Source: Microbacterium natoriense (lineage in GTDB: Bacteria > Actinomycetota > Actinomycetes > Actinomycetales > Microbacteriaceae). From it: a stretch of DNA of 64,000 bases. Position numbers and translations under genes: made by a program. Positions 43,878-59,796 of the stretch are shown here, piece by piece. Position 1 is the first letter of the stretch. Every line of letters begins with the position of its first letter. The stretch covers positions 806,001-870,000 of the forward strand of contig NZ_JAUSXV010000001.1 of the NCBI RefSeq assembly GCF_030816295.1, in the 5' to 3' direction. A model generated the notes under the pieces. The model did not search any database. It saw nothing but the letters and a program-made list of their open reading frames with translations, and was not told the origin of the DNA.

Positions 43878-44473
43878 CGCGTCTTCTCCGCGGCCTGGCA
43901 GCGCTGGTCGATGAGCTCGGCCACGACGTCGGCGGCGGAGAGCAGGGGCTGGGTGCTCTTCATGGCGCGAGAGACGATCACCGCCCCCTCGATCGTCGAC
44001 ACGACGACGGTCGCCAGAGAGCGGGCCTCTGCCGCCTCCAGGCCATTGGCTTCGAGAAGGGCGGTGGTCGGCGTGATCCACGACTCGAACGCGGTCGCGC
44101 ACGCCTGCCGCAGTCGCTCGCTCTCTGCGCCCATCTCGAGGGTGACGACGGAGACCGGGCAGCCCAGCCGGAAGTCGCTCTCGCCGACGATGGTCGCCAG
44201 CGCCTCGACAGCGGCGCGGGCGGCCCCGGCCGCGCTTCCTGCCGATGCTGCCGCCTCGGCGATCAGCGCCTCGAACTGCTTCGCGGCGAGGTCGACGGCG
44301 GCGACTCCCAGTCCCTCTTTCCCCTTGGGGAAGTGGAAGTAGATCGACCCCTTCGGCGCGCCAGCGCGTTCGATCACGGCGTTCAGGCCCGTGCCGCTGT
44401 AGCCGCTGGTCTGGATGAGCTCGAGCATGGACTCAGCGAGCCGTGCCTTGGTCAGGTCTCCTTTGGATGCCAT
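43874..44473 (-). CDS. TetR family regulator (LmrA/YxaF-like)
   Basis: The 199-residue protein has a TetR HTH (LAESMLELIQTSGYSGTGLNAVIERAGAPKGSIYFHFPKGKEGL in parts; the APKGSIYFHFP form is typical of the LmrA/YxaF/QdoR group). ALATIVGESDFRLGCPVSVV belongs to the ligand domain. A perfect ATAGACCGGTCTAT palindrome lies ten bases upstream of its start. It is translationally coupled to the downstream SDR-hydrolase fusion, which it probably controls. Confidence 0.92.
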   Translation of the reverse strand: MASKGDLTKARLAESMLELIQTSGYSGTGLNAVIERAGAPKGSIYFHFPKGKEGLGVAAVDLAAKQFEALIAEAAASAGSAAGAARAAVEALATIVGESDFRLGCPVSVVTLEMGAESERLRQACATAFESWITPTTALLEANGLEAAEARSLATVVVSTIEGAVIVSRAMKSTQPLLSAADVVAELIDQRCQAAEKTR

Positions 44474-44552: not shown

Positions 44553-44579
44553 CGTCACGAATCAGGCCGCTCGGCGGTC
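44553..44579 (+). promoter_or_regulatory. ECF41-type promoter of the cupin gene
   Basis: CGTCACG (44553-44559), 16 bases, GGTC (44576-44579). It differs from the consensus only in the last -35 base. The start codon is at 44638. Confidence 0.65.
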
Positions 44580-44637
44580 CTCCTCATAGGGGTACGTCCG
44601 TCCCCGATGTGGAGCAAAGAGATCAGGAGTGTCAGAC

Positions 44638-45066
44638 ATGCACGACCACAATTCCATCTACGACAACCTCGCACCCGCTCAGCGACCGGCAGTTCACGTC
44701 CTGTCATCGGTCGATCTCGCAGCGATCGACGGTGCACGTGACGCGATGACGATCCACGTCACCCTGCCGCCGGCGAGCCCGGGAACGAGGCCTCACCGCC
44801 ATTCGGGTCCCGCGTTCGGCTATGTGGTCGAAGGCGAACTGCTCTTCGAGCTGGAGGGTGAAGCCCCGCGGGTCGTGAAAGCAGGGGAGACCTTCTGGGA
44901 GCCGGGCGGAGACGTGATCCACTACCAGGACGCCAACAACCTCGCTGACGAGTCCACGACCTTCGTGGTCACCATGCTGTGCGTCCCGGGCGAGCCCATG
45001 CTCACTCTCGTCTCGGAGCAGGAGCTGAGCAGCCGAAGCGCCCGCCGCGTGCCCGCATCGGCGTGA
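44638..45066 (+). CDS. Cupin domain protein
   Basis: ATG 44638 is eight bases after AGGAG and gives 142 residues. The cupin beta-barrel motif is PHRHSGPAFGYVVEGELLFELEGE, with PAGxTF-type GETFWEPGGDVIHYQDAN as motif 2 (read in pieces). The metal-binding His residues (HRH and the IHY) are present. Small cupins of this type act as oxygenases, isomerases or sensors of small molecules. Its promoter has the YGTCACR-N16-GGTC element, so it probably belongs to the ECF41 regulon that follows. Confidence 0.88.
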   Translation: MHDHNSIYDNLAPAQRPAVHVLSSVDLAAIDGARDAMTIHVTLPPASPGTRPHRHSGPAFGYVVEGELLFELEGEAPRVVKAGETFWEPGGDVIHYQDANNLADESTTFVVTMLCVPGEPMLTLVSEQELSSRSARRVPASA

Positions 45067-45101
45067 TTTCGTCGGCCGTTTGAAAGTCCGTCCCGTCGAA
45101 T

Positions 45102-45142
45102 GAGACCCGCCGTCCGCCATCTCCGGCGCCGCGGTGGGTCTC
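45102..45142. terminator. Hairpin between convergent cupin and cytochrome b genes
   Basis: GAGACCC (45102-45108) pairs with GGGTCTC (45136-45142), with additional CCG/CGG pairing inside. It is a probable bidirectional terminator. Confidence 0.5.
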
Positions 45143-45199
45143 GTCAGCACCGACTGCGATGAGACCTCCGGTCGGCGTCACGTCTTCGTGCCGTGTGGT

Positions 45200-46822
45200 T
45201 CAGGCTTCTTCCAGTGGCGGAAGTGACGCGGTAGTCGACATCCCGGAGTCTTTCCTCGTGCCTGCCGATGAGATTCGATCGCCGAGCAGGCGCACCGCCA
45301 ACCAGCCGCGAAGTCGCTCGGCTCGTCGTAGCCGTCCATCTTCATCGGGGCGTGCCTCGACGGCCTGCGCCGGCTTGTGGGCGGCGAGCCTCCATCTCTC
45401 ATACTCGTCGAGCGGTTGATGCACCTCTATGTACTCTCCACCGGGCATTCGGACGATGCGCCCTGTCTCGTATCCGTGCAGCACGAGGTCGCGGTCCTTG
45501 CGCTGCAGCGCGATGCAGACGCGCTGGGTGACGAAGAAGGCTGCCAGAGGTCCGACGAGAAGCGCCACCTGCAGCGTGAGGATCACCGTCTCGAACGACA
45601 CGTGGAAGAGGAGCGCGATGATGTCGGCGCTGCCTGCTGTCCAGAGGATGCCGTAGAAGATCACGCCGGCGACTCCGATCGACGTGCGGATGGTCGTGTT
45701 GCGGGGGCGGTCGAGGATGTGATGATCCACGCTGTCGTGCATGATCCACCCCTCGAGGAACGGGTAGAGGGCGACAACGACGAGGAACGCGCCGACGACC
45801 GTCAACGGAACAAGCACAGCGAGTGTCCACGTGCGGTCGAGGAACTCGAACTCCCAGCCGGGGGGTACCAGACGCAGCGCACCGTCAAGGAACCCGGTGT
45901 ACCAGTCCGGCTGACTTCCTGCGGATGCGTTGCCAGGATCGGCCGGGCCGTAGTTCCATATCGGATTCACGGTGACGAGGGTCGACATGAGAACCAGAAG
46001 ACCGACGACGACGGCGAACAGTCCTCCTGCCCGTACAGCGGCGTGAGGGAGCAGCGGAATGCCGACGATGTTGTTCTCCTCCCGACCGCCGGCGGCGAAC
46101 TGGGGAGGCTTGTTCTTGTAGGCGGATCGAGCGCGACCGGCGATGAGCACGAGCATTCCGACAGGGACCACGAGGATGTGAACCAGGTAGAGATTCTCGA
46201 TGATCCTTCCCGGGAACTCGCCTCCGAAGAGGGCCGTCGACAGCCAGGTTCCGATCACGGGGATGCCGAGGGTGATGCCCTCCACGATGCGGAGCCCCGA
46301 TCCGGAGAGCATGTCGTCGGGGAGTGCGTATCCGCTCCACCCGCCGGCGAGCACGACGATGAGCAGGAGGAAAAGCATCAGCCAGCTGCCTCGTCGCGGA
46401 CGGCGGAATCCACCGGTGAAGTACATGACCAGCAATTGGATCAGGACAGATGCGGGAACCATCAAGGCGGCCCAGTGATGGAGCTGCCGAAGAAGCAGTC
46501 CGCCGGGCACCTCGAACGACACCCGCATGACGGAATCGAAGGCCCGCGAGACCGTGACGCCGCCTAAGGGCACGTGCGGGCCGCGGTACACGACAGCCTC
46601 GCTGGACGGCACGTAGACGACCATGAGCACGACGCCGGTGACGAAGAGCACCGCGACGCCGGCGATCGTGATGACGCCGAAGAGGTTCGTCCAGTGCAGC
46701 GGGATGGAGCGCCCACGCAGTTCCTGCCGCACGGACGCCACCGCAGCACCCATGCGGGTACTGCGGAGACGATCCGACACGCGATCCGTGAACGATCCCG
46801 TGCGGCGTCGATCAACTGGCAT
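45200..46822 (-). CDS. Divergent QcrB-like cytochrome b lacking one heme ligand pair
   Basis: ATG 46822 gives 540 residues similar throughout to actinobacterial QcrB: PLHWTNLFGVI, VSFEVPGGLLLRQLHHWAALM, SGYALPDDMLSGSGLR, GIPVIGTWLSTALFGGEFPG, VNPIWNYGP, SQPDWY (Qo-site PEWY equivalent) and IEVHQPLDEYER. In helix B the first His (QLHHW) is kept, but the second ligand, His in HLxRxFFTG of QcrB, is Gln (IQLLVMYFTG). In helix D the first His (LVHILVVP) is kept but the second is Arg. So one heme (b_H-type) should be missing. No QcrA or QcrC is adjacent. It overlaps the NDH-2-like gene by 11 bases and shares its ECF41 promoter. Confidence 0.9.
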   Translation of the reverse strand: MPVDRRRTGSFTDRVSDRLRSTRMGAAVASVRQELRGRSIPLHWTNLFGVITIAGVAVLFVTGVVLMVVYVPSSEAVVYRGPHVPLGGVTVSRAFDSVMRVSFEVPGGLLLRQLHHWAALMVPASVLIQLLVMYFTGGFRRPRRGSWLMLFLLLIVVLAGGWSGYALPDDMLSGSGLRIVEGITLGIPVIGTWLSTALFGGEFPGRIIENLYLVHILVVPVGMLVLIAGRARSAYKNKPPQFAAGGREENNIVGIPLLPHAAVRAGGLFAVVVGLLVLMSTLVTVNPIWNYGPADPGNASAGSQPDWYTGFLDGALRLVPPGWEFEFLDRTWTLAVLVPLTVVGAFLVVVALYPFLEGWIMHDSVDHHILDRPRNTTIRTSIGVAGVIFYGILWTAGSADIIALLFHVSFETVILTLQVALLVGPLAAFFVTQRVCIALQRKDRDLVLHGYETGRIVRMPGGEYIEVHQPLDEYERWRLAAHKPAQAVEARPDEDGRLRRAERLRGWLAVRLLGDRISSAGTRKDSGMSTTASLPPLEEA

Positions 46823-48173
46823 GCCGTGCCTCGTCAGGTACACGATCCGAAAGGCGGATGATCGGCGGAACGGCCTCGAGGAATGCTGCCCGAGGCTGCT
46901 GAACCGATTGGAGAGAGACGATGTCACGGCCGAAGAGGAACGCGACGACCCACAGCGCCAGCACACGGGACTTGCGCTCCCACGTAGGAACAGCAAGAAC
47001 GTGATAGCCGCGGTGCATCAGCCACGCCAGGAGTCCCTTGATGACGATGCCCTTGTACTGGAAGACGCCGTGTCCGAGACCGAGGGTAGCGACGACGCCC
47101 AGGCTGTGGTGCGCATACTCGCGGGGCAGCTCTCCCCGGAGGGCCGCGGCGATGTTCTTGGCGAGCAGGCGACCCTGCCGGACGGCATGCTGCGCGTTCG
47201 GTACCGTGCGCGCTCCCGCGATCGGCGAGGTCAGGTCGGGGATGGCCGCGTTGTCGCCGGCGGCCCACGCGTCTTCGACGATCCTGTCGGCGGTGCCGAT
47301 CCGGAGATCCGGCCGGGTGATCAGAAGTCCCCGGGCGTCGATCGGCAGGTCCGTGTGCGAGGCGACGACCGGGTTCGACGCGTTGCCGGCAGCCCAGACC
47401 AAGATGTTCGAGGCGTACCGCTCACCGGTGGACAGCCTCACCTCGCCACCGGTGGCCGACACGAGCTGAGTGTTGAGATGCACGATCCCACCGCGCTGCG
47501 TCAGATGCTCGACGACCCACCGGCCGGGCTCGTCCGTCACCTCGGGAAGGATCCGCTCGTTGGCTTCGACCAGATGGAAGCTCAGCTCAGAGAAGCGGAG
47601 TTCTGGATAGGACTTCAGCAGCGACGACGCGAGAGCCAGCATCTCGCCGAAAGCCTCCACCCCGGAGAATCCGCCGCCGACGACCGTAGCCGTGAGGAGT
47701 CGCCGGCGCTCGGGCCCAGGAGGGAGAGCCGCTGCTGCTTCGAACGCGGTCAGCAACTGGTCGCGCACTGCGACGGCTTCCTCGACGGTCTTCAATCCGA
47801 TGGCATGCTCCGAGATGCCGTCGATCGGGAAGACCCGGGACACGGCCCCCGCTGTCACCACGATGATGTCGTAGTCCCGCCTCTGTGAGGAGCCATCCGG
47901 CATCTCGACGAGCACGTGCTTCTCGGCGTGCGAGATCGACGTGACACGGCCCGGAATCACTGTGGTCCGCCTCAGATGGCTGCGTAGAGAGACGGCGACG
48001 TGCCGCGCTTCGACAGATCCTGCCACCACCTCGGGAAGGAACGGCTGATAGGTCATATACGGCCGCGGCTCGACGAGAGTGATGCGAGCCTGCTTGTCGC
48101 GAAGCCGCTTCTCCAGGTTCCACGCCGTATAGAAACCGGCGTAACCGCCACCGACGATGAGGATGTTCTTCAT
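46812..48173 (-). CDS. NDH-2-like FAD-dependent NAD(P)H dehydrogenase
   Basis: ATG 48173 follows GGAG at 48182-48185 and lies inside the transcript expected from the ECF41-type promoter; longer frames start upstream of that promoter. The 453-residue protein has two dinucleotide-binding folds (ILIVGGGYAGFYTAWNLE and TATVVGGGFSGVEAFGEML), the NDH-2 segment YQPFLPEVVAG, VWAAGN and AWAAGDNAAIP. It would oxidise NAD(P)H and pass electrons to quinone or directly to the partner. Overlap with the divergent cytochrome b gene suggests a two-protein electron-transfer unit at the membrane. Confidence 0.9.
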   Translation of the reverse strand: MKNILIVGGGYAGFYTAWNLEKRLRDKQARITLVEPRPYMTYQPFLPEVVAGSVEARHVAVSLRSHLRRTTVIPGRVTSISHAEKHVLVEMPDGSSQRRDYDIIVVTAGAVSRVFPIDGISEHAIGLKTVEEAVAVRDQLLTAFEAAAALPPGPERRRLLTATVVGGGFSGVEAFGEMLALASSLLKSYPELRFSELSFHLVEANERILPEVTDEPGRWVVEHLTQRGGIVHLNTQLVSATGGEVRLSTGERYASNILVWAAGNASNPVVASHTDLPIDARGLLITRPDLRIGTADRIVEDAWAAGDNAAIPDLTSPIAGARTVPNAQHAVRQGRLLAKNIAAALRGELPREYAHHSLGVVATLGLGHGVFQYKGIVIKGLLAWLMHRGYHVLAVPTWERKSRVLALWVVAFLFGRDIVSLQSVQQPRAAFLEAVPPIIRLSDRVPDEARHAS

Positions 48174-48202
48174 CAGTTCCGTCTCCATTCCCTCACCAAT
48201 AA

Positions 48203-48229
48203 GACCCCGTAGCGGTGTGGATTGTGACA
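48203..48229 (-). promoter_or_regulatory. ECF41-type promoter of the NDH-2/cytochrome b operon
   Basis: On the minus strand TGTCACA (48229-48223), 16 bases, GGTC (48206-48203). The start codon at 48173 is about 30 bases on. Confidence 0.75.
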
Positions 48230-48263
48230 GGTGTCGTGAGTTCGTCGACCTCGTCGAGAATGG

Positions 48264-48295
48264 AGGGTGTGAGGAGTGATCACTCCTCACACCCT
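48264..48295 (-). terminator. Perfect 32-bp palindrome terminator
   Basis: A 16-base arm (AGGGTGTGAGGAGTGA) is followed directly by its exact complement, with no loop bases. It lies five bases beyond the NmrA-like gene's stop. Confidence 0.75.
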
Positions 48296-48300
48296 GACTC

Positions 48301-49056
48301 TTACTTCTTGGCCTGCGAGGCGAGCCACTCGTCGAGCGTCGTCGACGCGAGCTGCGCGCCTTCGACCGGGAGAAGCGTCGACTGCTCGATCTTCGCGCCG
48401 AAGTACTGCGCGTCGGGGGTGGTCGTCACCGAGCGCTGATCGCCTGCTGCGGCGAACGTCCGCTTGATGAACTCCTCGATCGAGAACGTCTCCGGCCCGG
48501 CGACCTCGACGGGGCCGTTGGCGGGTTCCCCGGCTGCAGCGCGGCCCACAGCGGTCGCGACATCCTCCGCCGCGATCGGCTGGATCAGGGCGTCGGCGAC
48601 GCGGATCTCCTCCCCCTGCATGGAAGTGAAGACGATCGCCGGAGCGAACTCGAAGAACTGCGTGGCGTGAAGCAGGGTGTAGGGCACACCGGAGTCCGCG
48701 ATCAGCTTCTCCTGAGCAGCCTTGCCGTGGAAGTAGCTGATGTCCTGCGGCCGGTTGGTTCCGACCACGGTGAGCGCCACGTGATGCTTGACTCCCGCTT
48801 CCTTCTCCGCAGCGAGCTGGTTCTTCGTGGACGTCGTGAAGAAGTCCATCACCACGTCCGGAGCATACGAGGGCGCCTGTGTCGTGTCGACGACCACGTC
48901 GGCTCCCACGAGCGCCTTCGCGAGTCCCTCACCGGTCATCGTGTCGACGCCGGTCTTGCGCGACGCGGCTACCGCATCGTGTCCGTGCGCGATGAGCTTC
49001 TCCACGACGCGGGAGCCGACATGTCCGGTGCCGCCGATAACTACGATCTTTGCCAT
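48301..49056 (-). CDS. NmrA-like NAD(P)-dependent oxidoreductase, copy 1 (ECF41 regulon)
   Basis: ATG 49056 gives 251 residues beginning AKIVVIGGTGHVGSRVVEKL, an NmrA/atypical-SDR nucleotide-binding motif. SGVPYTLLHATQFFEF and VAGPETFSIEEF follow. It is a close relative of the genes at 55744 and 56573. Such oxidoreductase/epimerase-type proteins are known partners of ECF41 sigma factors (the COE set). A YGTCACR-N16-GGTC promoter lies just upstream at 49107-49133. The substrate is unknown. Confidence 0.9.
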   Translation of the reverse strand: MAKIVVIGGTGHVGSRVVEKLIAHGHDAVAASRKTGVDTMTGEGLAKALVGADVVVDTTQAPSYAPDVVMDFFTTSTKNQLAAEKEAGVKHHVALTVVGTNRPQDISYFHGKAAQEKLIADSGVPYTLLHATQFFEFAPAIVFTSMQGEEIRVADALIQPIAAEDVATAVGRAAAGEPANGPVEVAGPETFSIEEFIKRTFAAAGDQRSVTTTPDAQYFGAKIEQSTLLPVEGAQLASTTLDEWLASQAKK

Positions 49057-49106
49057 TTTCGGATACCTTCCGTCTTTGAGACGTCGACGTGACGTCCCGA
49101 AGGGGT

Positions 49107-49133
49107 GACCGGTGACCGAGGTCGGGTGTGACG
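49107..49133 (-). promoter_or_regulatory. ECF41-type promoter of NmrA-like copy 1
   Basis: On the minus strand CGTCACA (49133-49127), 16 bases, GGTC (49110-49107), immediately after the upstream SnoaL gene's stop. Confidence 0.75.
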
Positions 49134-49136
49134 GTG

Positions 49137-49448
49137 TCATCGATTCCAGTGGCGGAGTTTCTCCGGGTTGCACACCACCCACACGGTGGCCATTCGTCCT
49201 GAGCGGAAGTCGGCCGTGATGACTCCGACGACCCGGTCATCCCGAACCAGGGTGATGCCGGGGACGCTGTTGATAGAGGCCAACGCCGCGGTGGTTCCTT
49301 CAGTCATCAACGCCACCAGTTCCGACGACGCGGCAGAGCGCCCGCTGAGAGGGATCGATGCGGTGTCCACGTGCCCTCCGCTGTCTATGACCAATGTCAC
49401 GGCCCGATGAAGGAGGCCACGAATCGCTTCGTCGTCCTTCGTCGCCAT
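49137..49448 (-). CDS. Free-standing SnoaL-like domain related to the ECF41 C-terminus
   Basis: The 103-residue product (ATKDDEAIRGLLHRAVTLVIDS, SELVALMTEGTTAALASINS, and the end VWVVCNPEKLRHWNR) resembles the C-terminal half of ECF41 sigma factors, whose tails end in a VRNPDKL-like segment; the adjacent sigma factor ends in LWVMSPEKLRNV. No sigma region 2 or 4 is present. It may be a remnant of a second sigma gene or a genuine small regulator that acts on the sigma factor. It lies 81 bases downstream of the sigma gene on the same strand. Confidence 0.7.
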   Translation of the reverse strand: MATKDDEAIRGLLHRAVTLVIDSGGHVDTASIPLSGRSAASSELVALMTEGTTAALASINSVPGITLVRDDRVVGVITADFRSGRMATVWVVCNPEKLRHWNR

Positions 49449-49529
49449 CGCCTTCGAGAGCTCTGCGATGATCTCCTCGTCGGCACCACGATGTGCCCGG
49501 CGCGACCACGCGCGGGTAACGCCTGGAGG

Positions 49530-50501
49530 TCATGCGCTGACCGCGGCGACGTTCCGCAATTTCTCGGGGCTCATCACCCAGAGAAGTTGCAGGATGCCGT
49601 CACTCGACGGTGTCACGGTCACCACGGTGGTGACCTGCCCGTCTTCCGTGAGGGTTGCGGCGGGCTGCCCGTTGACCTCGACCCAGTCGATTCTCTTGTT
49701 CGTCCAGAAGTGGTGCGCGAACGCGGAGACGAACTTCGCCACCCGCCCGCGCCCGCTCACCGGGATGCGTGCGGCCTGCTTCACCCCGTTGCCATCCGTG
49801 TAGCTCACGACGTCGGCAGCGAAGAGCGACTCGAGCTCGCGGACATCCCCCTTCTGGGCAGCAGTCAGGAAAGCCGCCAGAAGACGTCTTTGCGCTGCGG
49901 GATCCACCGTCGCCTGCTTTGCGGACGCGAGGTGTGCGCGTGCTCGGCTGACCAGCTGTCGTGCGCTGGCCGGGCTGGATGAGACCACCTCGGCGATGCG
50001 CGGGTAGGGGTAGTCGAATGCCTCGCGAAGGATGTACGCCGCCCGCTCGGTCGGTGTCAGCTTCTCCAGCGTGAGCAGGATCGCGAAATGCAGAGCTTCG
50101 GCGCGCTCCGCTCCGAGAGCGGGGTCGTCCTCCGTGTTCACAGGCTCAGGGAGCCACGGGCCGATGTACGTCTCACGGCGCACGCGGGAAGACTGGAGGA
50201 CGTTGATCGACAGCCGCGTCACGATCGTGGTGAGAAAGGCGATCGGTTCCTGTACCTTCGAGCGATCCGTGTTCTGCCAGCGGATCCAGGTCTCCTGGAC
50301 GATGTCATCGGCATCGGCAACGGTGCCGAGCATCCGATAGGCGATGCCGAACAGACGTCGGCGGTGCGCGTCGAATGTCGTCAGCGCGTCCTCCAGCTCG
50401 GTGCACACACCACTATGTTCGTCGGTCTTCTCGCGTTCGTCCACGTCGACGTCTTCAGCGCCCACGGGAGACCCTGCTTCCGTCTTCCTGACCCGTCCCA
50501 T
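49530..50501 (-). CDS. ECF41-type sigma factor (SigJ-like) with SnoaL-like regulatory tail
   Basis: Region 2 is RRRLFGIAYRMLGTVADADDIVQETWIRW, region 4 LTPTERAAYILREAFDYPYPRIAEVV with SPASARQLVSRARAHL (read in parts). IGPWLPEPV between them is a hallmark of group ECF41. A SnoaL-like domain of about 110 residues follows. In this group the fused tail, not a separate anti-sigma factor, controls activity. The start is uncertain: ATG 50501 has no clear Shine-Dalgarno sequence, GTG 50555 has GAGGA upstream, and shorter starts exist. A YGTCACR-N16-GGTC site at 50578-50604 implies autoregulation. Confidence 0.9.
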   Translation of the reverse strand: MGRVRKTEAGSPVGAEDVDVDEREKTDEHSGVCTELEDALTTFDAHRRRLFGIAYRMLGTVADADDIVQETWIRWQNTDRSKVQEPIAFLTTIVTRLSINVLQSSRVRRETYIGPWLPEPVNTEDDPALGAERAEALHFAILLTLEKLTPTERAAYILREAFDYPYPRIAEVVSSSPASARQLVSRARAHLASAKQATVDPAAQRRLLAAFLTAAQKGDVRELESLFAADVVSYTDGNGVKQAARIPVSGRGRVAKFVSAFAHHFWTNKRIDWVEVNGQPAATLTEDGQVTTVVTVTPSSDGILQLLWVMSPEKLRNVAAVSA

Positions 50502-50577
50502 CCGACACCACGATCCGCATCGTCGCCCGCTCCGTTCTGAACGACTTCGGTCCACGCAGATGCCGTCCTCTAAGGGT

Positions 50578-50604
50578 GACCGCGCAGGAGCCCGATCTGT
50601 GACG
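50578..50604 (-). promoter_or_regulatory. ECF41-type promoter of the sigma gene itself
   Basis: On the minus strand CGTCACA (50604-50598), 16 bases, GGTC (50581-50578), just upstream of the sigma coding region. It implies positive autoregulation. Confidence 0.75.
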
Positions 50605-50643
50605 GGTCCAGGCGAAGACGTCTGACGGCGAGCAGCTTCTTCG

Positions 50644-51240
50644 TCAGTCCGGGTAGGCCGCCCGTATGCGGCGTCGTTCGTACATCAGAGTCGCGGTCAG
50701 CAGCGCCGCTCCGACGACCACCCCGGCGATCTGGGCGAGGAGTGGCTGCGCGCCCCCTCCGAAGATCAGGAGGAGCGCGACGAGCGCTCCCCCGAGCACC
50801 GAGTTCACCGTTCCGATCATGCTCGCCATCGTGAACAGGAATGACGAACGCGAGTAGCGCACACCCAGCTCCCCGGTGCGCGGGTTGTCGAGGGAGATCA
50901 GATCCGGACCTGACGGATGCAGGCTGACGAAGTGCTCCCGGATCCGCACCATGCGCCGGCGCACCGTGATGTTCTCGACGCTGGTGTCGACCAGGCGCAC
51001 GACGGTGAACCAGCCGAGCATGAAGATCGTAGGGAAGACCGTGACCGTGAGGACCGCCAGCAGTGCGGGCGACCTGCCCGCGAAGCCGATGGCCACCAGT
51101 CCGCTTGACAGCGTCGACAGGTAGATCGTGCTGCGCGTTCCCGCCTCTGCGATCGTCGAGCTCGCGACCGATTGCAGCACGAACAGCTCGGTCCCGATCG
51201 CACTGTTCAATGCGGCCGCGCCGGGTTCCGCATCGGCCAT
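50644..51240 (-). CDS. Membrane protein in the CMD operon
   Basis: ATG 51240 shares its A with the TGA of the upstream CMD gene (TGATG), so it is translationally coupled. The 198-residue protein has two hydrophobic pairs (about 40-75 and 130-180) flanking a charged middle (VRRRMVRIREHFVSLHPSG). The family is not recognised. Coupling to an AhpD-like protein in a sigma regulon suggests a membrane partner in redox or quinone metabolism, which is inference. Confidence 0.75.
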   Translation of the reverse strand: MADAEPGAAALNSAIGTELFVLQSVASSTIAEAGTRSTIYLSTLSSGLVAIGFAGRSPALLAVLTVTVFPTIFMLGWFTVVRLVDTSVENITVRRRMVRIREHFVSLHPSGPDLISLDNPRTGELGVRYSRSSFLFTMASMIGTVNSVLGGALVALLLIFGGGAQPLLAQIAGVVVGAALLTATLMYERRRIRAAYPD

Positions 51241-51770
51241 CAGCGGGCCTCGTTTCCGCTTCGACGCTCCGGGGCCACCTCGTAGTGACTGGTGATGGCG
51301 ACTCGGTTGAAGGCGTTGATGATGATGGCCAGCCACCTCACCGCGGCGTGCTGCTCGACCGAGAGTGCGCCGGTTGCGTCGCGCTGCGCTGCGCGCCCGG
51401 CCTGTTCGTCGGCGATGAGCGTCACGTGCTCGGTGACCGCGAGCGCGGCCTTCTCCACCGGGGTGAAGTAGTCGGTGTCCCGCCACGCGCTCAGAACGGC
51501 GAGGCGGTCGGATGTCTCCCCCGCGAGGAGAGCGTCGCGCGTGTGCATCCGCAGGCAGAACGCGCAGCCGTTCAGCTGAGACGCGCGGACGCGAATCAGC
51601 TCGATGATGCGCTGGTCGAGGCCCGCCTGCACTGCCGCAGCAGTGGCCTCCTTGCCTGCTGACAGGAGCGCCTTGTACACGGCGGGTGCGGCGTGGTCGA
51701 GGTGCGCGGGAGGGAGCCCGGGCTCGGCCGGGAGATCCGCGATCGTTTCCTGCTGCCCGATGGTCGACAT
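51240..51770 (-). CDS. Carboxymuconolactone decarboxylase/AhpD-like protein
   Basis: ATG 51770 follows AAAGGTG and gives 176 residues. ELIRVRASQLNGCAFCLRMHTRDAL contains the CxxC-type site with the following His of AhpD/CMD proteins, preceded by AVYKALLSA. Such proteins act as alkylhydroperoxidase-like thiol reductases or decarboxylases. CMD proteins are the classical neighbours and targets of ECF41 sigma factors. A consensus YGTCACR-N16-GGTC promoter lies at 51826-51852. Confidence 0.93.
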   Translation of the reverse strand: MSTIGQQETIADLPAEPGLPPAHLDHAAPAVYKALLSAGKEATAAAVQAGLDQRIIELIRVRASQLNGCAFCLRMHTRDALLAGETSDRLAVLSAWRDTDYFTPVEKAALAVTEHVTLIADEQAGRAAQRDATGALSVEQHAAVRWLAIIINAFNRVAITSHYEVAPERRSGNEAR

Positions 51771-51825
51771 GTTCACCTTTCGAATCTGAGGCGCGCCTGA
51801 CATTCTCAGCGCCGTTCACTTCGTT

Positions 51826-51852
51826 GACCGGGAGGAAGCCCCCGTTGTGACG
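51826..51852 (-). promoter_or_regulatory. ECF41-type promoter of the CMD operon
   Basis: On the minus strand CGTCACA (51852-51846), 16 bases, GGTC (51829-51826). The start codon is at 51770. Confidence 0.75.
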
Positions 51853-51892
51853 AGCGTCACAGGCGCAACAGGGGGCTGCCGCTCGATCGGCC

Positions 51893-51919
51893 TGTCACAC
51901 CGCAGCGGTTCTCGCTGTC
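51893..51919 (+). promoter_or_regulatory. Weaker ECF41-type promoter of the SDR gene
   Basis: TGTCACA (51893-51899), 16 bases, TGTC (51916-51919) instead of GGTC. A second TGTCACA begins at 51916. Upstream of the SDR start at 51990. Confidence 0.45.
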
Positions 51920-51989
51920 ACATTGGTGGCGCCCTACGAGCTCCGGTGGAGCCACCTCCGGTCGCGGCGCCATGATCAGGGGAAAGCGC

Positions 51990-52727
51990 ATGAATCGGAA
52001 ACTGGAAAGCAAAGTCGTACTCGTCACCGGAGCGTCATCCGGAATCGGACGCGCCACCGCTCTGGCCCTCTCCACAGCTGGTGCACTCGTCGTCGCCGCG
52101 GGACGCCGAACGGAGAATCTGCAGGAGCTGGTCGAGGAAGCTCCCGGCGAGATGCTGGCGGTGGAGCTCGATGTCACCGACAGGGAATCCGTGGACCGGG
52201 CGGTGGCGGCAGCCGTCGAACGTTTCGGTCGGCTCGACGCACTCGTGAACAACGCCGGGCTGATGTTGGCAGGAATGGTCGTGGGCGCGAACACGGACGA
52301 ATGGGTGCGCATGGTGGAGACGAACCTGTTGGGATCGATGTTCGTGGCCCACGCCGCTCTCCCTCACCTCGTCGAAACGCACGGCGCGTTCGTTCAGGTG
52401 TCATCCACCTCGGGGCGAATCGCGTCTGCGGGCGCCGCCGTGTACTCGGCGACCAAGTTCGGGATCACCGCATTCGCGGAAGCGGTCCGACAGGAGGTCA
52501 CGAGTCGCGGCGTCCGAGTCGTCGTGGTGGAGCCGGGCTTCGTCGAGACGGAGCTCACCGACCACACCACAGACCCCGTCATGAGGGATGCCGCCGATCA
52601 GATCGGGCGGTCGATGCGCACACTACAGCCGGAGGACATCGCGGACGCGATCGTCTTCGCGCTCACCCAGCCGGAGCACGTCTCCATCAACGAGCTCTTG
52701 GTTCGCCCGACCGATCAGGTCCACTGA
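51990..52727 (+). CDS. SDR family oxidoreductase (ECF41 locus)
   Basis: ATG 51990 follows AGGGGAAA and gives 245 residues. VVLVTGASSGIGRATALAL (cofactor), LVNNAGLMLAG, VQVSSTSGR (Ser), YSATKFGITAF (Tyr, Lys) and EPGFVETEL are typical classical SDR motifs. It probably reduces a carbonyl compound with NADPH. The upstream element TGTCACA-N16-TGTC is a weaker match to the ECF41 promoter. A strong bidirectional terminator follows. Confidence 0.93.
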   Translation: MNRKLESKVVLVTGASSGIGRATALALSTAGALVVAAGRRTENLQELVEEAPGEMLAVELDVTDRESVDRAVAAAVERFGRLDALVNNAGLMLAGMVVGANTDEWVRMVETNLLGSMFVAHAALPHLVETHGAFVQVSSTSGRIASAGAAVYSATKFGITAFAEAVRQEVTSRGVRVVVVEPGFVETELTDHTTDPVMRDAADQIGRSMRTLQPEDIADAIVFALTQPEHVSINELLVRPTDQVH

Positions 52728-52734
52728 TCGCTCG

Positions 52735-52773
52735 GTGGTGCACCGTCTAGGTGTTCGACGGTGCACCACCGTG
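52735..52773. terminator. Bidirectional terminator
   Basis: A 15-bp perfect stem (CGGTGGTGCACCGTC) with a 9-base loop between the convergent SDR and hydrolase genes. Confidence 0.85.
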
Positions 52774-53712
52774 TCACGGTGTGCCGGCTCCGTCCCCTGG
52801 AGGTTCCGCGACATCCGCGACAGCCTGGGCGAAGGCGTGCGGTGCCTCGGCCGGCAGATGGTGACCCGCATGGCGGACCTGACGATGCTCGCGGGGGCCT
52901 GAGAACAGATGCGCATGCTGTGACCCGTCCGTCGCCGGGAAGTTCCCATCCGCCGTCCCATCGAGCGTGATCGTGGGAACGCTGATCGTCGGGGCAAGAG
53001 CCAGACGCTCCTCGAGTTCGTCGTAGATCTCCGCTCCTGGCGCCAGGCCCAGTCGGTGACGGTACGAGTGGATGACGACCTCGACGTAGTCGGGATTGTC
53101 GAATGCGCGGGCGACGCGGTTCAGTTGCGCGTCGCTGAACGCCCATTCCGGCGAGTTCCTCCGCCAGATCACCTCGGCGATGTCTCGCCTGTTGGCATCG
53201 AGGCCGCGACGACCTCGGTCGGTGGCGAAGTACCAGAAGTACCAGAACCCGGCCTCCAGGTCAGGGCGTATCGGTGATTGCGAGTCGGCGATGTTCTGGA
53301 TGAGGTAGCCGTTGACCGAGACGAGTCCGGAGATCCGCTCCGGCCACAGGGCGGCGACGACGCATGCCGCCCGCCCGCCCCAGTCGTATCCGGCGAGGAC
53401 CGGCTCGTCCAGATCCAGAGCGTCGATGAACGTCAGAAGGTCCGATCCCAATGCGGCTTGCTGACCCGTGCGAGCGGTTCGGTCATCCCGGAACCGCGTG
53501 GGGCCGTGCCCGCGCAGATACGGCACGACGACTCGATAGCCGGCGTCGACGAGCATCGGCGCGACCTCGGCGTAGCTGTGCACGTCGTAGGGATAGCCGT
53601 GCAGGAGCACGACGGGGTCTGCAGACGGGTCGCCGAGATCGAAGTAGGCGACGGACAGGTCGCCCGCGTCGATCTGCTGGGCAGTGAGGAAGGGCGAGGA
53701 TGCAGAGGTCAT
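52774..53712 (-). CDS. Alpha/beta hydrolase, epoxide-hydrolase-like
   Basis: The 312-residue protein has the oxyanion segment LLHGYPYDVHS, RGHGPTRF, and the nucleophile elbow GYDWGGRAA with Asp as nucleophile, as in epoxide hydrolases and haloalkane dehalogenases. The catalytic His is probably in RHAGHHLPAEAP. Substrates may be epoxides or similar electrophiles. It is the third of three consecutive minus-strand hydrolase genes and may be in one unit with the ECF41-type promoter at 55605-55631. A hairpin follows its stop. Confidence 0.92.
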   Translation of the reverse strand: MTSASSPFLTAQQIDAGDLSVAYFDLGDPSADPVVLLHGYPYDVHSYAEVAPMLVDAGYRVVVPYLRGHGPTRFRDDRTARTGQQAALGSDLLTFIDALDLDEPVLAGYDWGGRAACVVAALWPERISGLVSVNGYLIQNIADSQSPIRPDLEAGFWYFWYFATDRGRRGLDANRRDIAEVIWRRNSPEWAFSDAQLNRVARAFDNPDYVEVVIHSYRHRLGLAPGAEIYDELEERLALAPTISVPTITLDGTADGNFPATDGSQHAHLFSGPREHRQVRHAGHHLPAEAPHAFAQAVADVAEPPGDGAGTP

Positions 53713-53780
53713 GATGATCCTTCACGTCGATGGTGTGGCGCCCCGCACCGCGCGAGCAGTGCGGGACGCCACGGTCTGGG

Positions 53781-54524
53781 TCAGGCCATGGTTGACGTGA
53801 CGCCGGCGACGTACGCCTTGCCGGCGGACGCGATCACTTCGGCGACGACCTCGGGGTGCGACACCAGGGCGGCGTGGGAGGCACCCTCGATCTCCCGCGT
53901 TCCGCGGGAAGCGGCGCGCTCTGCGCCCGCGCGGAACACCGCCACCGGGATGTTCAGGTCATGGTCGCCGAAGACGTGCCATGACGGGATGTCCTTCCAC
54001 GCCGGCCGCGTGGTGGGCAGACCGTCCGTGAGTGCGGCCTCGGTGACCGGTCGCTGAGTCGCGGCCATGAGGACGACGGTCTCCTCAGTCACGTCCGCAG
54101 CGAACTGGTGGTGGAATGCGTCCGGACGGATGGCGAACTCGTTTCCGCCTGTGGAGACGGGGTGCACCAGCAGCGTCTCGCCGAGTGTGCTCCCGGGGGC
54201 GCTGTTCGACAGATCGAAGGCGCTCTCGCCGGTCTCGGGGACGAACGCTGATACGTAGACGAGGCCGACGACAGCCGTGTTGGCGGACGCTGCCTCCGTG
54301 ATCACGAGACCGCCGTAGGAGTGCCCGACGAGTACGACAGGCCCCGCGATGGAGGAGATGACGTCGCGCACGTACGCGGCATCGCCGGTCAGGCTGCGCA
54401 GCGGGTTGGCGACGGCGACCACCTTCACACCGTGGGTCTGCAGCTGCGCGATGACGGCATTCCAGGATGCAGACTCTGCAAACGCTCCGTGGACGAGGAC
54501 GATGGTGGGTTTCTCGGGGGTCAT
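53781..54524 (-). CDS. Alpha/beta hydrolase (EstC/MenH-like)
   Basis: The 247-residue protein has IVLVHGAFAESASW (oxyanion loop), VLVGHSYGGLVI (nucleophile Ser in GHSYG) and a terminal His in EGASHAALVSHP. The catalytic triad of serine hydrolases appears complete. The substrate is unknown. It lies 59 bases downstream of the hormone-sensitive-lipase-like gene and 68 bases upstream of the epoxide-hydrolase-like gene, all on the same strand. Confidence 0.92.
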   Translation of the reverse strand: MTPEKPTIVLVHGAFAESASWNAVIAQLQTHGVKVVAVANPLRSLTGDAAYVRDVISSIAGPVVLVGHSYGGLVITEAASANTAVVGLVYVSAFVPETGESAFDLSNSAPGSTLGETLLVHPVSTGGNEFAIRPDAFHHQFAADVTEETVVLMAATQRPVTEAALTDGLPTTRPAWKDIPSWHVFGDHDLNIPVAVFRAGAERAASRGTREIEGASHAALVSHPEVVAEVIASAGKAYVAGVTSTMA

Positions 54525-54583
54525 GATGTCTCTTCTCTCTAGATGTTGCGCTGCTGGGGGGCTTCGGATGTGAGGACGGGCGA

Positions 54584-55534
54584 CTACGCGGCTGCGAGTG
54601 CCTTGCGGAGAATGTGGATCGCCTGTTCGATCGCGGCAGTGCTGGCAGCGGAGCTGCGCAGCGGGTTGAGCATCATGAAGTCGTGGATGGTGCCGTCGTA
54701 GCGGACGAGCGTCGTACGCACGCCTGCTTCGATGAGCTTCCGCCCGTACGCTTCGCCCTCGTCGCGAAGGACGTCGTTCTCGTCGACGACGAGGAACGTC
54801 TCCGGCAGACCCGCCAGCTCGTCGATCGACGCTCTGAGTGGGGACGCGCTGACATCGGTGCGAGCGTCGACGTCAGGAAGGTAGCTGTCCCAGAACCAGG
54901 CCATCGCGTCGGCGCGAAGGTGGAACCCTTCTGCGAACTCCCGGTAGCTCTCCGTGTCCTGACCGGCGTCGGTCACCGGGTAGTACAGCGACTGGTGGAC
55001 GAAGGTGACGTCGCCGCGACGCTTCGCGAGAATCGCGACGACGGCTGCCATGTTCCCGCCGACGGAGTCACCGGCGATGGCGAGACGAGAAGCGTCCAGA
55101 CCTTTCGACGCGCCGTCGTTCGTGATCCAGCGTGCCGTCGCGTACACCTGTTCGACAGCCACGGGGTGATGGGCTTCCGGCGAGCGGTCGTACTCGACGA
55201 AGACGACCGCCGCATCGGCGCCGGCCGCAAGCTCGCGCACGAGACGGTCGTGGGTGCCGGCATCGCCCAGCACCCATCCACCACCGTGGACGTAGAGCAC
55301 GACCGGCAGCTCGCCGCTGGAACCCGCAGGCTTCACGATGCGGACCCGCACGTCTCCGACCTCCGCCGGGACAGTGATCCACTCATCGACGACATCGGAC
55401 TCTGCGATCGGCGCTCCCTGGACGTCGTCGAGGAGCTTTCGCGCGCCCTCGACACCGAGGTCGGCGAGGAACGGAGGCGTCGATGTCGCGTCGGCGAAGG
55501 CTTGCGCCTCCGGCTCCAGAACGTGGTCGGTCAT
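54584..55534 (-). CDS. Alpha/beta hydrolase (hormone-sensitive-lipase family)
   Basis: The 316-residue protein has LYVHGGGWVLGDAGTHDRL (HGGG oxyanion motif), IAGDSVGGNMAAVVA (nucleophile GDSVG), FLVVDENDVLRDEGEAYG (Asp) and TIHDFMML (His), the HSL/family IV esterase pattern. It probably cleaves short-chain esters or lactones. A consensus ECF41-type promoter (TGTCACA-N16-GGTC, minus strand) lies at 55605-55631, back to back with that of the NmrA-like gene. Confidence 0.93.
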   Translation of the reverse strand: MTDHVLEPEAQAFADATSTPPFLADLGVEGARKLLDDVQGAPIAESDVVDEWITVPAEVGDVRVRIVKPAGSSGELPVVLYVHGGGWVLGDAGTHDRLVRELAAGADAAVVFVEYDRSPEAHHPVAVEQVYATARWITNDGASKGLDASRLAIAGDSVGGNMAAVVAILAKRRGDVTFVHQSLYYPVTDAGQDTESYREFAEGFHLRADAMAWFWDSYLPDVDARTDVSASPLRASIDELAGLPETFLVVDENDVLRDEGEAYGRKLIEAGVRTTLVRYDGTIHDFMMLNPLRSSAASTAAIEQAIHILRKALAAA

Positions 55535-55604
55535 GACAGGGTCCTTTCAGATGTGCGGTGAGCCGTTCTCGACCGTCACCGGTTCTGCAGCCCATGCAAG
55601 AAAG

Positions 55605-55631
55605 GACCAGATGAACTCAGTGATTGTGACA
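55605..55631 (-). promoter_or_regulatory. ECF41-type promoter of the hydrolase genes
   Basis: On the minus strand TGTCACA (55631-55625), 16 bases, GGTC (55608-55605), ahead of the HSL-type hydrolase start at 55534. Confidence 0.75.
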
Positions 55632-55664
55632 ACCCTGCGGATGAGCGGTCTTCTCGCCGTTTTG

Positions 55665-55691
55665 CGTCACAACCTCCGTGTGCGCCCGGTC
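55665..55691 (+). promoter_or_regulatory. ECF41-type promoter of NmrA-like copy 2
   Basis: CGTCACA (55665-55671), 16 bases, GGTC (55688-55691). The start codon is at 55744. Confidence 0.75.
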
Positions 55692-55743
55692 AATTCATGT
55701 ACGGGCGGCCATACGCGACGGCCCCAGCTGACGAAGGAGCATC

Positions 55744-56490
55744 ATGAAAATCACGGTCATCGGTGGAACCGGACTGATCGGCGCCAAGCTCACCCGCGCT
55801 CTCGACGATGCCGGCCACGAAGTTCTCGTCGGGGCACGCGCGACCGGCGTGAACTCGTACACCGGCGAAGGGCTGGAGGAGGCGCTGACCGGTGCGGACG
55901 TGCTCGTCGACGTGTCGAACTCCTCGTACACCGACGAAGAGGCCGCCCGTGACTTCTTCTACACCTCGACCATGAATCTGCTCAGCTACGGCCGAGCGGT
56001 CGGAGTCCCGCATCATGTCGCGCTCTCGGTTGTCGGAACGGACAGGCTTGCGCGCGCTGAAGGAGGGTACTTCGCAGCGAAAGAGCAGCAGGAGCGGTTG
56101 ATCATCGAGTCCCAGCAGCCGTACTCACTGGTGCACGCAACGCAGTTCTTCGAGTTCATCCGAAACATCACCGACAACGCCACGCACGGCGGGAAAGTTC
56201 GCGTCGCGGACGTGCTCCTACAGCCCATGGCGGCAGCAGACGTCGCCGGTGCCGTCGCCGAGGTCGCCCTCGGTCGACCGCTGTACGGCATGGTCGAGTT
56301 CGCGGGCCCGGAGGTCTTCAGCCTCGAGCAGCTGGCGGTTCAAGATCTGCGTTTCCGCCAGGATGAGCGGGAGGTGACTGCAGACCCTCTCGGCACCTAT
56401 TTCGGGGCACATCTTCAGAGCCGCGACCTGCTCCCCGAGGCGACGGCGAGGATCGCTCCGACGAGGTACCACGACTGGCGGAGCAACTGA
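55744..56490 (+). CDS. NmrA-like NAD(P)-dependent oxidoreductase, copy 2 (ECF41 regulon)
   Basis: The 248-residue protein begins KITVIGGTGLIGAKLTRAL and contains PYSLVHATQFFEF and VEFAGPEVFSLEQL, closely like the genes at 48301 and 56573 in order and length. It starts after GAAGGAGC, 52 bases downstream of a consensus ECF41-type promoter. A nucleotide-dependent reductase or sensor role is likely; the substrate is unknown. Confidence 0.92.
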   Translation: MKITVIGGTGLIGAKLTRALDDAGHEVLVGARATGVNSYTGEGLEEALTGADVLVDVSNSSYTDEEAARDFFYTSTMNLLSYGRAVGVPHHVALSVVGTDRLARAEGGYFAAKEQQERLIIESQQPYSLVHATQFFEFIRNITDNATHGGKVRVADVLLQPMAAADVAGAVAEVALGRPLYGMVEFAGPEVFSLEQLAVQDLRFRQDEREVTADPLGTYFGAHLQSRDLLPEATARIAPTRYHDWRSN

Positions 56491-56498
56491 CGAACGTC

Positions 56499-56525
56499 TG
56501 TCACATCCAACACCCCTGTCTGGTC
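56499..56525 (+). promoter_or_regulatory. ECF41-type promoter of NmrA-like copy 3
   Basis: TGTCACA (56499-56505), 16 bases, GGTC (56522-56525), nine bases after the stop of copy 2. A TGGGCAC/GTGCCCA hairpin follows in the leader. Confidence 0.75.
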
Positions 56526-56572: not shown

Positions 56573-57328
56573 ATGGCAAAGATCGTCGTCATCGGAGGCA
56601 CAGGCCTCATCGGATCCAAGGTCGTCTCGAAGCTGAACGCGCACGGCCACGAGGCCATCGCGGCGTCGCCGAACACCGGCGTCAACACGCTGACCGGAGA
56701 GGGCGTCGCGGAAGTCCTCACGGGCGCCGACACGGTCGTCGACGTGTCCAACTCGCCGTCCTTCGCGCCGGATGACGTCATGGAGTTCTTCACCACGTCG
56801 ACGAGCAATCTGCTGCGCGCAGAGGCGGCGGCCGGCGTGAAGCACCACGTCGCTCTCACGATCGTCGGCACGAACAGGCCCCAGAGCATCCCGTATTTCG
56901 CGGCGAAGGTCGCTCAGGAAAAGCTGATCCGCGACTCGGGAATCGGATACTCACTGGTCCACGCCACGCAGTTCTTCGAGTTCGTCGGCAGCATCGCCGA
57001 CATCTCGACCGAAGACGACACAGTCCGGCTTCCCGGCGGCCTGGTTCAGCCCATCGCCGCGGAAGACGTCGCGACGGCCGTCGCGCGCACGGCTGCGGGC
57101 GCGCCCCAGGGCGACATCGAGATCGCGGGACCCGAGGCCTTCGGCATGGACGAGTTCATTCGTCGCGGCCTCACCTTCCGCAAGGACCCTCGAGTCGTCG
57201 TGCGCGACGACAGCGCTCCGTACTACGGCGCGCAGATCGAAGAGCGCACTCTTCTCCCTGTCGAGGGCGCTCAGATCTTCGAGACGCGCTTCGAGGACTG
57301 GCTGCCGCTCAACCCGCCCCGCAAGTAG
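56573..57328 (+). CDS. NmrA-like NAD(P)-dependent oxidoreductase, copy 3 (ECF41 regulon)
   Basis: ATG 56573 follows GAGGAAGG and gives 251 residues. AKIVVIGGTGLIGSKVVSKL, YSLVHATQFFEFVGS and IAGPEAFGMDEFIRRGL match the other two copies; the N-terminus is almost the same as that of the 48301 gene. Three paralogues with the same promoter type point to local gene amplification under one sigma factor, perhaps with different substrates. Confidence 0.92.
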   Translation: MAKIVVIGGTGLIGSKVVSKLNAHGHEAIAASPNTGVNTLTGEGVAEVLTGADTVVDVSNSPSFAPDDVMEFFTTSTSNLLRAEAAAGVKHHVALTIVGTNRPQSIPYFAAKVAQEKLIRDSGIGYSLVHATQFFEFVGSIADISTEDDTVRLPGGLVQPIAAEDVATAVARTAAGAPQGDIEIAGPEAFGMDEFIRRGLTFRKDPRVVVRDDSAPYYGAQIEERTLLPVEGAQIFETRFEDWLPLNPPRK

Positions 57329-58968: not shown

Positions 58969-59796
58969 TCAGATCAAGCGACGCAGGGCCTCTTCGAGGG
59001 TGACGCCCTGGGCCTCGGCGAGGTCGGTGAGACGCGCGTGCTCGTCGCCGCTCAGCGTGATGCGCAGTTCGATCGGGTCGTCGGCGGGTGCGTCGTCGAG
59101 ACCGTCGAACAGGTCGGATGCCTCGGCCCACAGCGGCTCGGCGAGCGATGCCGCTGCGGCGGATGCCGATGGGTCGCTGAGCTTGTCGAAGCGTCCTGCG
59201 GTGGGCCCTTCGACAGGCTCAGGGACCCAGGGAGTGCCGGGCCCGTCGGCGGGCGCTGCGCCCCAGGCATCGTCCCCACGGGCGCCCGCTGCGATCGGCG
59301 CCGAACCGGCGACCGCGGCCCCGGCATCCGTCGCCTGCGTGAAACCGGGACCCCGCCGCGGCTCCTGCTTCGCCTGATACGCCTTCGCGGCGGCGTTGGC
59401 GCGCTGGTCGGCGGCCTCGTTGAGCGGGTGACCGGCATGACCCTTGACCCAAGAGAACTCGACATCGCGCCCTCGCATCGCCTCATCGAGCGCCTCCATG
59501 AGGTCGCGGTTGAGCACCGGCCCGCCGTCGGACTTGCGCCAGCCCTTGCGTTTCCAACCAGGCATCCACTTGGTGACCGAGTCGATCACGTACTTGCTGT
59601 CGCACTCGATCAGGAGCTTCTCGTCTGTGCCCGCGGTCGCCCGCAGCAGCTCGAGCACGGCCTGCAGCTCTCCTTGGTTGTTCGTGCCGTGCGGAGATCC
59701 GCCGGCCGCCCAGTTCTCGTCGTCGATGTACCAAGCCCAGCCGTTGGGACCGGGATTGCCCAGGGCGGAGCCGTCTGCGGCGGCGGTGATCGTCAT
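58969..59796 (-). CDS. rnhA: Ribonuclease H with C-terminal extension and in-frame repeat
   Basis: ATG 59796 follows GGAGGG and gives 275 residues. The RNase HI active site is complete: Asp in AAADGSALGNPG, Glu in NNQGELQAVLE, Asp in IECDSKYVID and Asp in NEAADQRAN. After residue about 145 comes a low-complexity linker in which PWVPEPVEGPTAG and RFDKLSDPS are encoded by repeat family B, then a short ribbon-helix-helix-like end (ITLSGDEHARLTDLAEAQGV, TLEEALRRLI). It degrades RNA in RNA-DNA hybrids. The tail may bind DNA or a partner. Confidence 0.92.
   Translation of the reverse strand: MTITAAADGSALGNPGPNGWAWYIDDENWAAGGSPHGTNNQGELQAVLELLRATAGTDEKLLIECDSKYVIDSVTKWMPGWKRKGWRKSDGGPVLNRDLMEALDEAMRGRDVEFSWVKGHAGHPLNEAADQRANAAAKAYQAKQEPRRGPGFTQATDAGAAVAGSAPIAAGARGDDAWGAAPADGPGTPWVPEPVEGPTAGRFDKLSDPSASAAAASLAEPLWAEASDLFDGLDDAPADDPIELRITLSGDEHARLTDLAEAQGVTLEEALRRLI
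59171..59227. repeat. Dispersed repeat family B inside rnhA
   Basis: Inverted arms GGGTCGCTGAGCTTGTCGAAGC (59171-59192; one base shorter when read as motif) and GCCCTTCGACAGGCTCAGGG (59204-59223). This is the well-known actinobacterial/proteobacterial palindromic repeat whose translation gives PEPVEG and RFDKLS. Confidence 0.8.

Follow-up and report, generated by a model that had tools for sequence, protein, structure and literature searches.

How does a sigma factor whose studied relatives are each reported to serve a single target operon come to lie among a dense set of similar promoter-like sites, and why is its gene followed directly by a second one that encodes only the tail which such sigma factors normally carry fused to their own C-terminus? 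These questions are raised by a 12-kb cluster (44553 to 56525) of Microbacterium natoriense, contained in a stretch of 64,000 nucleotides (contig NZ_JAUSXV010000001.1, positions 806,001 to 870,000, forward strand) that is here called the window and whose numbering is used below. The cluster is best read, and in our judgement probably, as a local regulon of an ECF41-type sigma factor whose control would fall in part to the free tail, acting in trans. As judged from the sequences, it is highly probable that the sigma factor drives YGTCACA-N16-GGTC/TGTC sites, and control of the sigma factor in trans by the free tail is favoured with distinctly less assurance, inhibition being more likely than help. 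The two genes at the centre of the argument are the following.

49530..50465, minus strand: ECF41/SigJ-type sigma factor gene, 311 amino acids by its called start, recognised by profile matches

49137..49448, minus strand: stand-alone ECF41 tail gene (NTF2/SnoaL-like, with the motif CNPEKLRHWN), 103 amino acids from an internal ATG, directly after the sigma gene

The ECF41 identity of the sigma factor, proposed in a first-pass annotation of this DNA, is supported by two profile models, both above their cut-offs (TIGR02957, 349 bits against 323; SigJ, 296 against 271). Among the features by which ECF41 members are recognised, both core domains, sigma2 and sigma4, and a C-terminal extension of the SnoaL-like type are present, the linker YIGPWLPEP carries the WLPEP motif of the sigma2-sigma4 linker, and carboxymuconolactone decarboxylase (CMD) and oxidoreductase genes are neighbours of the sigma gene. 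The fused tail, however, ends in SPEKL rather than in the expected NPDKL, and NPEKL is found in the separate tail. Because NPDKL, one conserved motif among several and not the only mark of the group, is missing, the protein is regarded as a divergent ECF41-type sigma factor and not as a typical member.

The putative promoters are given one per line, the doubtful one last.

48203..48229, minus strand: TGTCACA-N16-GGTC, before the NDH-2-like gene

49107..49133, minus strand: CGTCACA-N16-GGTC, before the NmrA-like gene 48301-49056

50578..50604, minus strand: CGTCACA-N16-GGTC, before the sigma gene

51826..51852, minus strand: CGTCACA-N16-GGTC, before the CMD/AhpD-like gene

51893..51919, plus strand: TGTCACA-N16-TGTC (the ninth site), before a short-chain dehydrogenase (SDR) gene

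55605..55631, minus strand: TGTCACA-N16-GGTC, before a run of hydrolase genes

55665..55691, plus strand: CGTCACA-N16-GGTC, before NmrA-like gene 2

56499..56525, plus strand: TGTCACA-N16-GGTC, before NmrA-like gene 3

44553..44579, plus strand: CGTCACG-N16-GGTC, doubtful, before the cupin gene 44638-45066

The first-pass annotation had described eight YGTCACR-N16-GGTC sites, each 5' of a start codon and in the right orientation, together with a ninth ending in TGTC. All eight were found at those positions and on those strands, the ninth has the TGTC ending and fits the set, and the sites lie 15-113 nucleotides (nt) 5' of a called start on the same strand, with none inside a called gene. The stretch contains 8 matches where 100 dinucleotide shuffles gave a mean of 0.47 and a maximum of 4, none reaching 8. 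In a scan of the whole 4.19-Mb genome, 17 exact matches to YGTCACR-N16-GGTC were obtained, 8 of them inside the 12-kb stretch, and the 9 outside it all read CGTCACG. The separation becomes complete when the final base of the -35 element is required to be A: a scan of all 4,191,385 bases, in which 34 matches of a wider pattern were examined, placed 7 of 7 YGTCACA-N16-GGTC sites in this cluster (contig 854203-862525), so that an equal density elsewhere, which would have spoken against a local regulon, was not seen. N16-TGTC sites number three genome-wide; they include the one at 51893 (+) and one upstream of a gene pair with a paralogous ECF41 sigma factor (2853540). Of the proposed targets, then, those behind the seven GGTC sites and the TGTC site stand out, but membership of the site at 44553 in the set is doubtful: CGTCACG is the background form, and by its letters this site, unlike the other seven, is indistinguishable from background. 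The cupin behind it is the only one called in the related loci compared below, hence no comparative test of the site was available. A TetR-like repressor gene, recognised by eye, lies divergent from the cupin gene (43874-44473, minus strand) and may, in place of the sigma factor, be what regulates the cupin.

For comparison, seven named Microbacterium loci were used along with 40 stretches found by searching 295 genomes of the genus for the tail, several of which are the same records as the named loci. In addition, a tail-neutral sample of 67 TIGR02957 hits in 59 genomes of the genus was drawn regardless of the tail (59 stretches, plus 8 hits in stretches from other sets), and further loci from the family and the order were mapped for genes and sites. 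Loci with a profile score of at least 380 and distinct sigma cores are called clade loci (n=67), as opposed to other ECF41 loci (n=61). Genes were called by a codon-usage caller trained on these loci, whose starts are approximate; it missed the sigma factors of L091 and L206, which were read from the frames, gave no sigma gene in L163, and made the one in L141 short.

The 67 clade loci hold 205 YGTCACA-N16-KGTC sites (GGTC 167, TGTC 38), plus one CGTC and one AGTC, and the spacing is sharply defined, with 207 sites at N16 and between 2 and 9 for any other spacer length in the range 13-19. In the 61 other ECF41 loci, N16 sites comprise 14 CGTC, 12 TGTC and 5 GGTC, and K-type sites amount to 0.28 per locus compared with 3.06 in the clade, the block-shuffle expectation being 0.019. 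Within the clade, 200 of the 205 sites lie outside called genes and 5 inside, and 193 are followed by a same-strand start within 250 nt, at a median of 52 nt. Set against the ECF41 promoter TGTCACA-N16-CGTC, the -35 element and the spacer agree, and the predicted -10 element, GGTC, is a property of this sigma clade. The first-pass annotation had been right to single out the GGTC; since the promoter, its -10 element and much of the gene set recur across the 67 clade loci, they are clade features and not peculiarities of the window. The local regulon itself is supported by the clustering of the sites and by dozens of related loci in which members of the same gene families again follow this promoter. 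An own site is present in clade loci for 99 of 123 NmrA genes, 14 of 17 first hydrolase genes, 10 of 15 membrane protein genes, 38 of 81 sigma genes, 3 of 6 NDH-2 genes and 2 of 6 cytochrome b genes. The respiratory-type operon had also been placed in the set at first pass: its genes have a site in the window, in L170 (NDH-2), in L202 (NDH-2 and cytochrome b) and in L116 (cytochrome b), but those of L095 and L169 have no site of their own. The pair of an NDH-2-like gene and a second QcrB-type cytochrome b gene recurs in L141, L169, L170, L171 and L202.

The stand-alone tail gene, which was absent from the first-pass annotation, is considered more surprising than the regulon. In the SigJ and SigX4 models, its product aligns with nothing but the tail portion (E 2.8e-13), and it has no Pfam match at E 0.001; a protein search, under a length rule that bars full sigma factors, returned 46 relatives. 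A profile of the tail found residues 176-297 of SigJ in the PDB (5xe7, E 7.5e-8). The free tail, the only protein folded, has a predicted NTF2-like structure (pLDDT 84, pTM 0.73), for which SigJ 5xe7 ranked fourth (TMq 0.65) and SigG1 tenth among the structures compared, and it shows the NTF2/SnoaL-like fold and the DxGG and NPDKL-type motifs of an ECF41 tail domain. Alignments in which sigma factor and tail were read as one chain, with the sigma stop taken as W, were dropped: in one, low identities of the tail rows pointed to free tails aligned on the fused tail, and in the other the fused tails were aligned on the free one. In L168, L170, L174 and L176, an extra NTF2-like protein of ~113-148 amino acids without NPDKL is encoded right behind the same type of promoter; the NTF2-like proteins of 113-148 amino acids from other genera were at first labelled tails by profile and were set apart, as they have no NPDKL motif.

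In 53 of 63 loci, the start of the tail gene overlaps the sigma stop by 4 nt, and most relatives start 28 codons earlier than the window tail, at an ATGA or GTGA overlapping that stop. Moreover, in the tail-neutral sample an adjacent tail was found for 10 of 12 clade sigma factors (the exceptions being L118 and L121) and for none of 54 other hits, while L107, with only 120 nt downstream, could not be judged. When gene calls were ignored, the downstream DNA of the 59 control stretches contained a tail in 4 (L116, L119, L120, L122).

According to PMC7730460, ECF41 tails contact the linker via NPDKL, and it is the asparagine (Asn) of this motif that is distributed unevenly between the two tails. 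Among 63 clade pairs, from which loci with an unreadable fused-tail motif (L081, its sigma factor in two pieces) and tandem second-sigma loci were left out, 49 carry Asn in the free tail alone, 8 in the fused tail alone, 5 in neither tail and 1 in both; L206 and L207, of another family and added by hand (total 65), have it in neither, which makes 7. By comparison, Asn is present in 47 of 47 other ECF41 sigma factors with a readable motif, a count from 54 rows (score 136-250) after removal of 7 that do not fit xPxK[LIHM] (two without letters and five divergent, some without Asn) and exclusive of lower-scoring rows, several of them without the motif.

As for the origin of the free tail, a tail-domain tree groups the free tails with the second-sigma tails of tandem pairs from other genera of the family (L166, L178, L176), near other ECF41 tails and apart from the tails fused to their own sigma factors, by which descent as a copy of the neighbouring sigma factor's own tail is rejected. 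The second sigma factors of these tandem pairs have changed cores, and one has no WLPEP linker. In genome G019, an internally deleted sigma gene under a promoter site is followed by an intact tail (L186), and an intact clade sigma gene on another contig (L121) encodes SPDKL and has no adjacent tail; this arrangement fits a beheaded second sigma factor whose tail was kept. Descent of the free tail from a second ECF41 sigma factor that would have lost its sigma2-sigma4 core is therefore supported by the tree and by these intermediates.

Taken together, a mechanism can be proposed. The sigma factor would recognise YGTCACA-N16-GGTC (or TGTC) and thereby drive its own gene, the three NmrA-like oxidoreductases, the NDH-2/cytochrome b genes, the CMD/membrane pair, the SDR and the hydrolase operon. 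A second ECF41 sigma factor presumably lost its sigma2-sigma4 core, its tail remaining as a free copy 3' of the sigma gene. The free tail may then dock in trans on the sigma2-sigma4 linker (WLPEP) and replace the fused tail, which would be weakened by SPxKL in place of NPDKL. In this way it would regulate the sigma factor with which it is co-translated, most probably by inhibition. Its release might be brought about by a small ligand bound in the NTF2-like pocket, for which substrates or products of the enzymes under this control are conceivable candidates. For this whole chain, from a second sigma factor without its head through a co-translated tail and a lock motif moved from fused to free tail to trans control of an expanded self-driven regulon, the chances are put at about even.

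Several observations weigh against control by the free tail. In the window, no stop codon interrupts the tail frame between the tail gene and the sigma stop, and the ATGA exists; close to the start, however, the sequence deviates by a single base in length from the coupled form, which shifts the frame, and translation of the window tail is for this reason unsure, even though the domain body is intact from the internal ATG. The frequency of the tail in clade loci is partly a matter of construction, because most of them were fetched by the tail search. On the tree, the fused tail need have changed only 2 times and the free tail 4 times to give the Asn exchange, with 2 independent pairs; the sign test was not significant and the pair test was powerless, so the exchange is to be taken as a pattern of few events, and its standing as statistically proven was rejected. 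The pairs with Asn in neither tail and the one with Asn in both do not fit an exchange, nor do L118 and L121, where SPxKL occurs yet no tail is adjacent. Finally, the tail-domain tree is built on few columns and has many open forks.

Among the alternatives, the one that survives best, though unlikely, accepts the regulon and takes the free tail for an enzyme or ligand carrier of the SnoaL/ketosteroid-isomerase type, which would fulfil a metabolic task and not touch the sigma factor. The fold is indeed common to small enzymes too, and NTF2-like proteins without NPDKL stand under the same promoter in other genera, but most free tails retain the motif with which ECF41 tails reportedly touch the linker, most are coupled to a sigma gene, and in the tree they fall among sigma-factor tails, all of which speaks rather for a partner of the sigma factor.

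If the free tail is such a partner, it might also help. Its action as a positive co-factor is rated slightly less likely than the enzymatic role, since the window sigma factor still has a complete fused tail, and removal of the distal extension raised activity ~20-fold in B. licheniformis and ~120-fold in R. sphaeroides (PMC3426412). The same paper lends this account its support, as activity is abolished by full removal of the extension, some of which an ECF41 sigma factor requires to be active and to bind RNA polymerase.

It is improbable that the free tail is a decaying, functionless remnant of a lost sigma gene. Such decay would agree with the frame breaks in the window and in L095 and with faster evolution of the tail than of the sigma factor, the median ratio of nonsynonymous to synonymous rates (dN/dS) being 0.40 for free tails and 0.15 for sigma factors (206 pairs of similar sigma factors with dS 0.05-1.5, not independent). 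Judged by the same ratio, however, the free tail is under purifying selection; its motif is conserved, it is found in two families of the order, and in L186 it survives where the local sigma gene is deleted. That the sites bind another regulator and are not sigma promoters is the least credible proposal, for which no supporting point was seen and against which stand a -35 element identical to the published ECF41 -35, the spacer peak at 16, and positions and orientations that fit promoters.

The proposed control of a multi-promoter regulon by a free tail would set this locus apart from the systems described. The ECF41 sigma factors of B. licheniformis and R. sphaeroides are reported to have one target operon each, with the consensus TGTCACA-16-CGTC (PMC3426412), and S. 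meliloti RpoE9, also an ECF41, has one target (PMC6180224). The sigma2-sigma4 core, the WLPEP linker, the fused SnoaL-like tail, the TGTCACA -35, the 16-bp spacer and the CMD/oxidoreductase neighbours are common to Ecf41Bli, Ecf41Rsp, RpoE9, SigJ and the window sigma factor; what differs here is that about eight local promoters are predicted instead of one (by sequence, seven GGTC and one TGTC sites), that the -10 element is GGTC and not CGTC, that the fused tail has SPxKL, and that an extra free tail gene exists. Relatives of sigma factors are known to become regulators or parts, as in the PhyR-type sigma mimics and the split sigma factor SigO-RsoA; in those cases sigma2/sigma4 parts survive, whereas here the tail alone does. 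A likeness is also seen to the ECF56 pair SigG1-RsfG of Streptomyces tsukubaensis, in which a sigma factor with a fused SnoaL_2 tail is likewise accompanied by a small co-transcribed regulator; SigG1 is reported without the NPDKL motif and RsfG without a conserved Pfam domain, while the partner here is itself an ECF41 tail (PMC7730460). CorE and ECF42 are also regulated by an extension, but theirs is fused in cis and one copy is separate here (PMC8999054).

In the literature searched, whose partial coverage is no proof of absence, no stand-alone ECF41 tail and no multi-promoter ECF41 regulon were recognised, and the excerpts covered name neither a partner protein nor a ligand for ECF41 switching; the free tail may be a new way to control an ECF41 sigma factor. 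With a separate gene, the tail can be studied independently of the sigma factor, by deletion, overexpression, purification and ligand screening. In addition, the dense similar promoters make the clade suited to studying the shift of -10 preference from C to G and the growth of a single-target sigma factor into the head of a regulon.

The remaining genes of the cluster, to which the sigma gene's own site, 113 nt before its called start, may be compared, are as follows.

45200..46822, minus strand: second QcrB-type cytochrome b (537 bits), downstream of NDH-2

46812..48188, minus strand: NDH-2-like pyridine nucleotide-disulphide oxidoreductase, site 15 nt before the called start

48301..49056, minus strand: NmrA-like NAD(P)-binding oxidoreductase 1, site 51 nt upstream

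50644..51240, minus strand: membrane protein paired with CMD, assigned by sequence, no Pfam match

51240..51770, minus strand: carboxymuconolactone decarboxylase/AhpD-like, site 56 nt upstream

51990..52727, plus strand: SDR, ninth site 71 nt upstream

52774..55534, minus strand: run of three hydrolase-type genes (54584-55534, 53781-54524, 52774-53712), site 71 nt before the gene at 54584

55744..56490, plus strand: NmrA-like oxidoreductase 2, same family as gene 1, site 53 nt upstream

56573..57328, plus strand: NmrA-like oxidoreductase 3, same family as gene 1, site 48 nt upstream

The NDH-2-like gene has a second ATG 15 nt after its called start, and the other QcrB-type cytochrome b of the genome, at C1:3140868, scores 732 bits. 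In the hydrolase run, 52774-53712 is an alpha/beta hydrolase by Pfam, and the other two members were assigned from their sequences.

The cluster is not present throughout the species. To the right of 57127, the window and a second genome of M. natoriense (G166) agree at 97%, and G166 is missing the cluster; at the break (L205), where the common sequence starts again within the last NmrA-like gene, a 60-codon remnant of that gene is left, and the best match to the window sigma factor in that genome is a 42% paralogue. At about 59170-59256 of the window, a stretch of ~26-28 bases has nearly exact copies at many G166 positions and represents a dispersed short repeat. Another ECF-type sigma factor, with a weak TIGR02957 match, is encoded in the window at 38486-38959 on the plus strand (genome 844486-844959).

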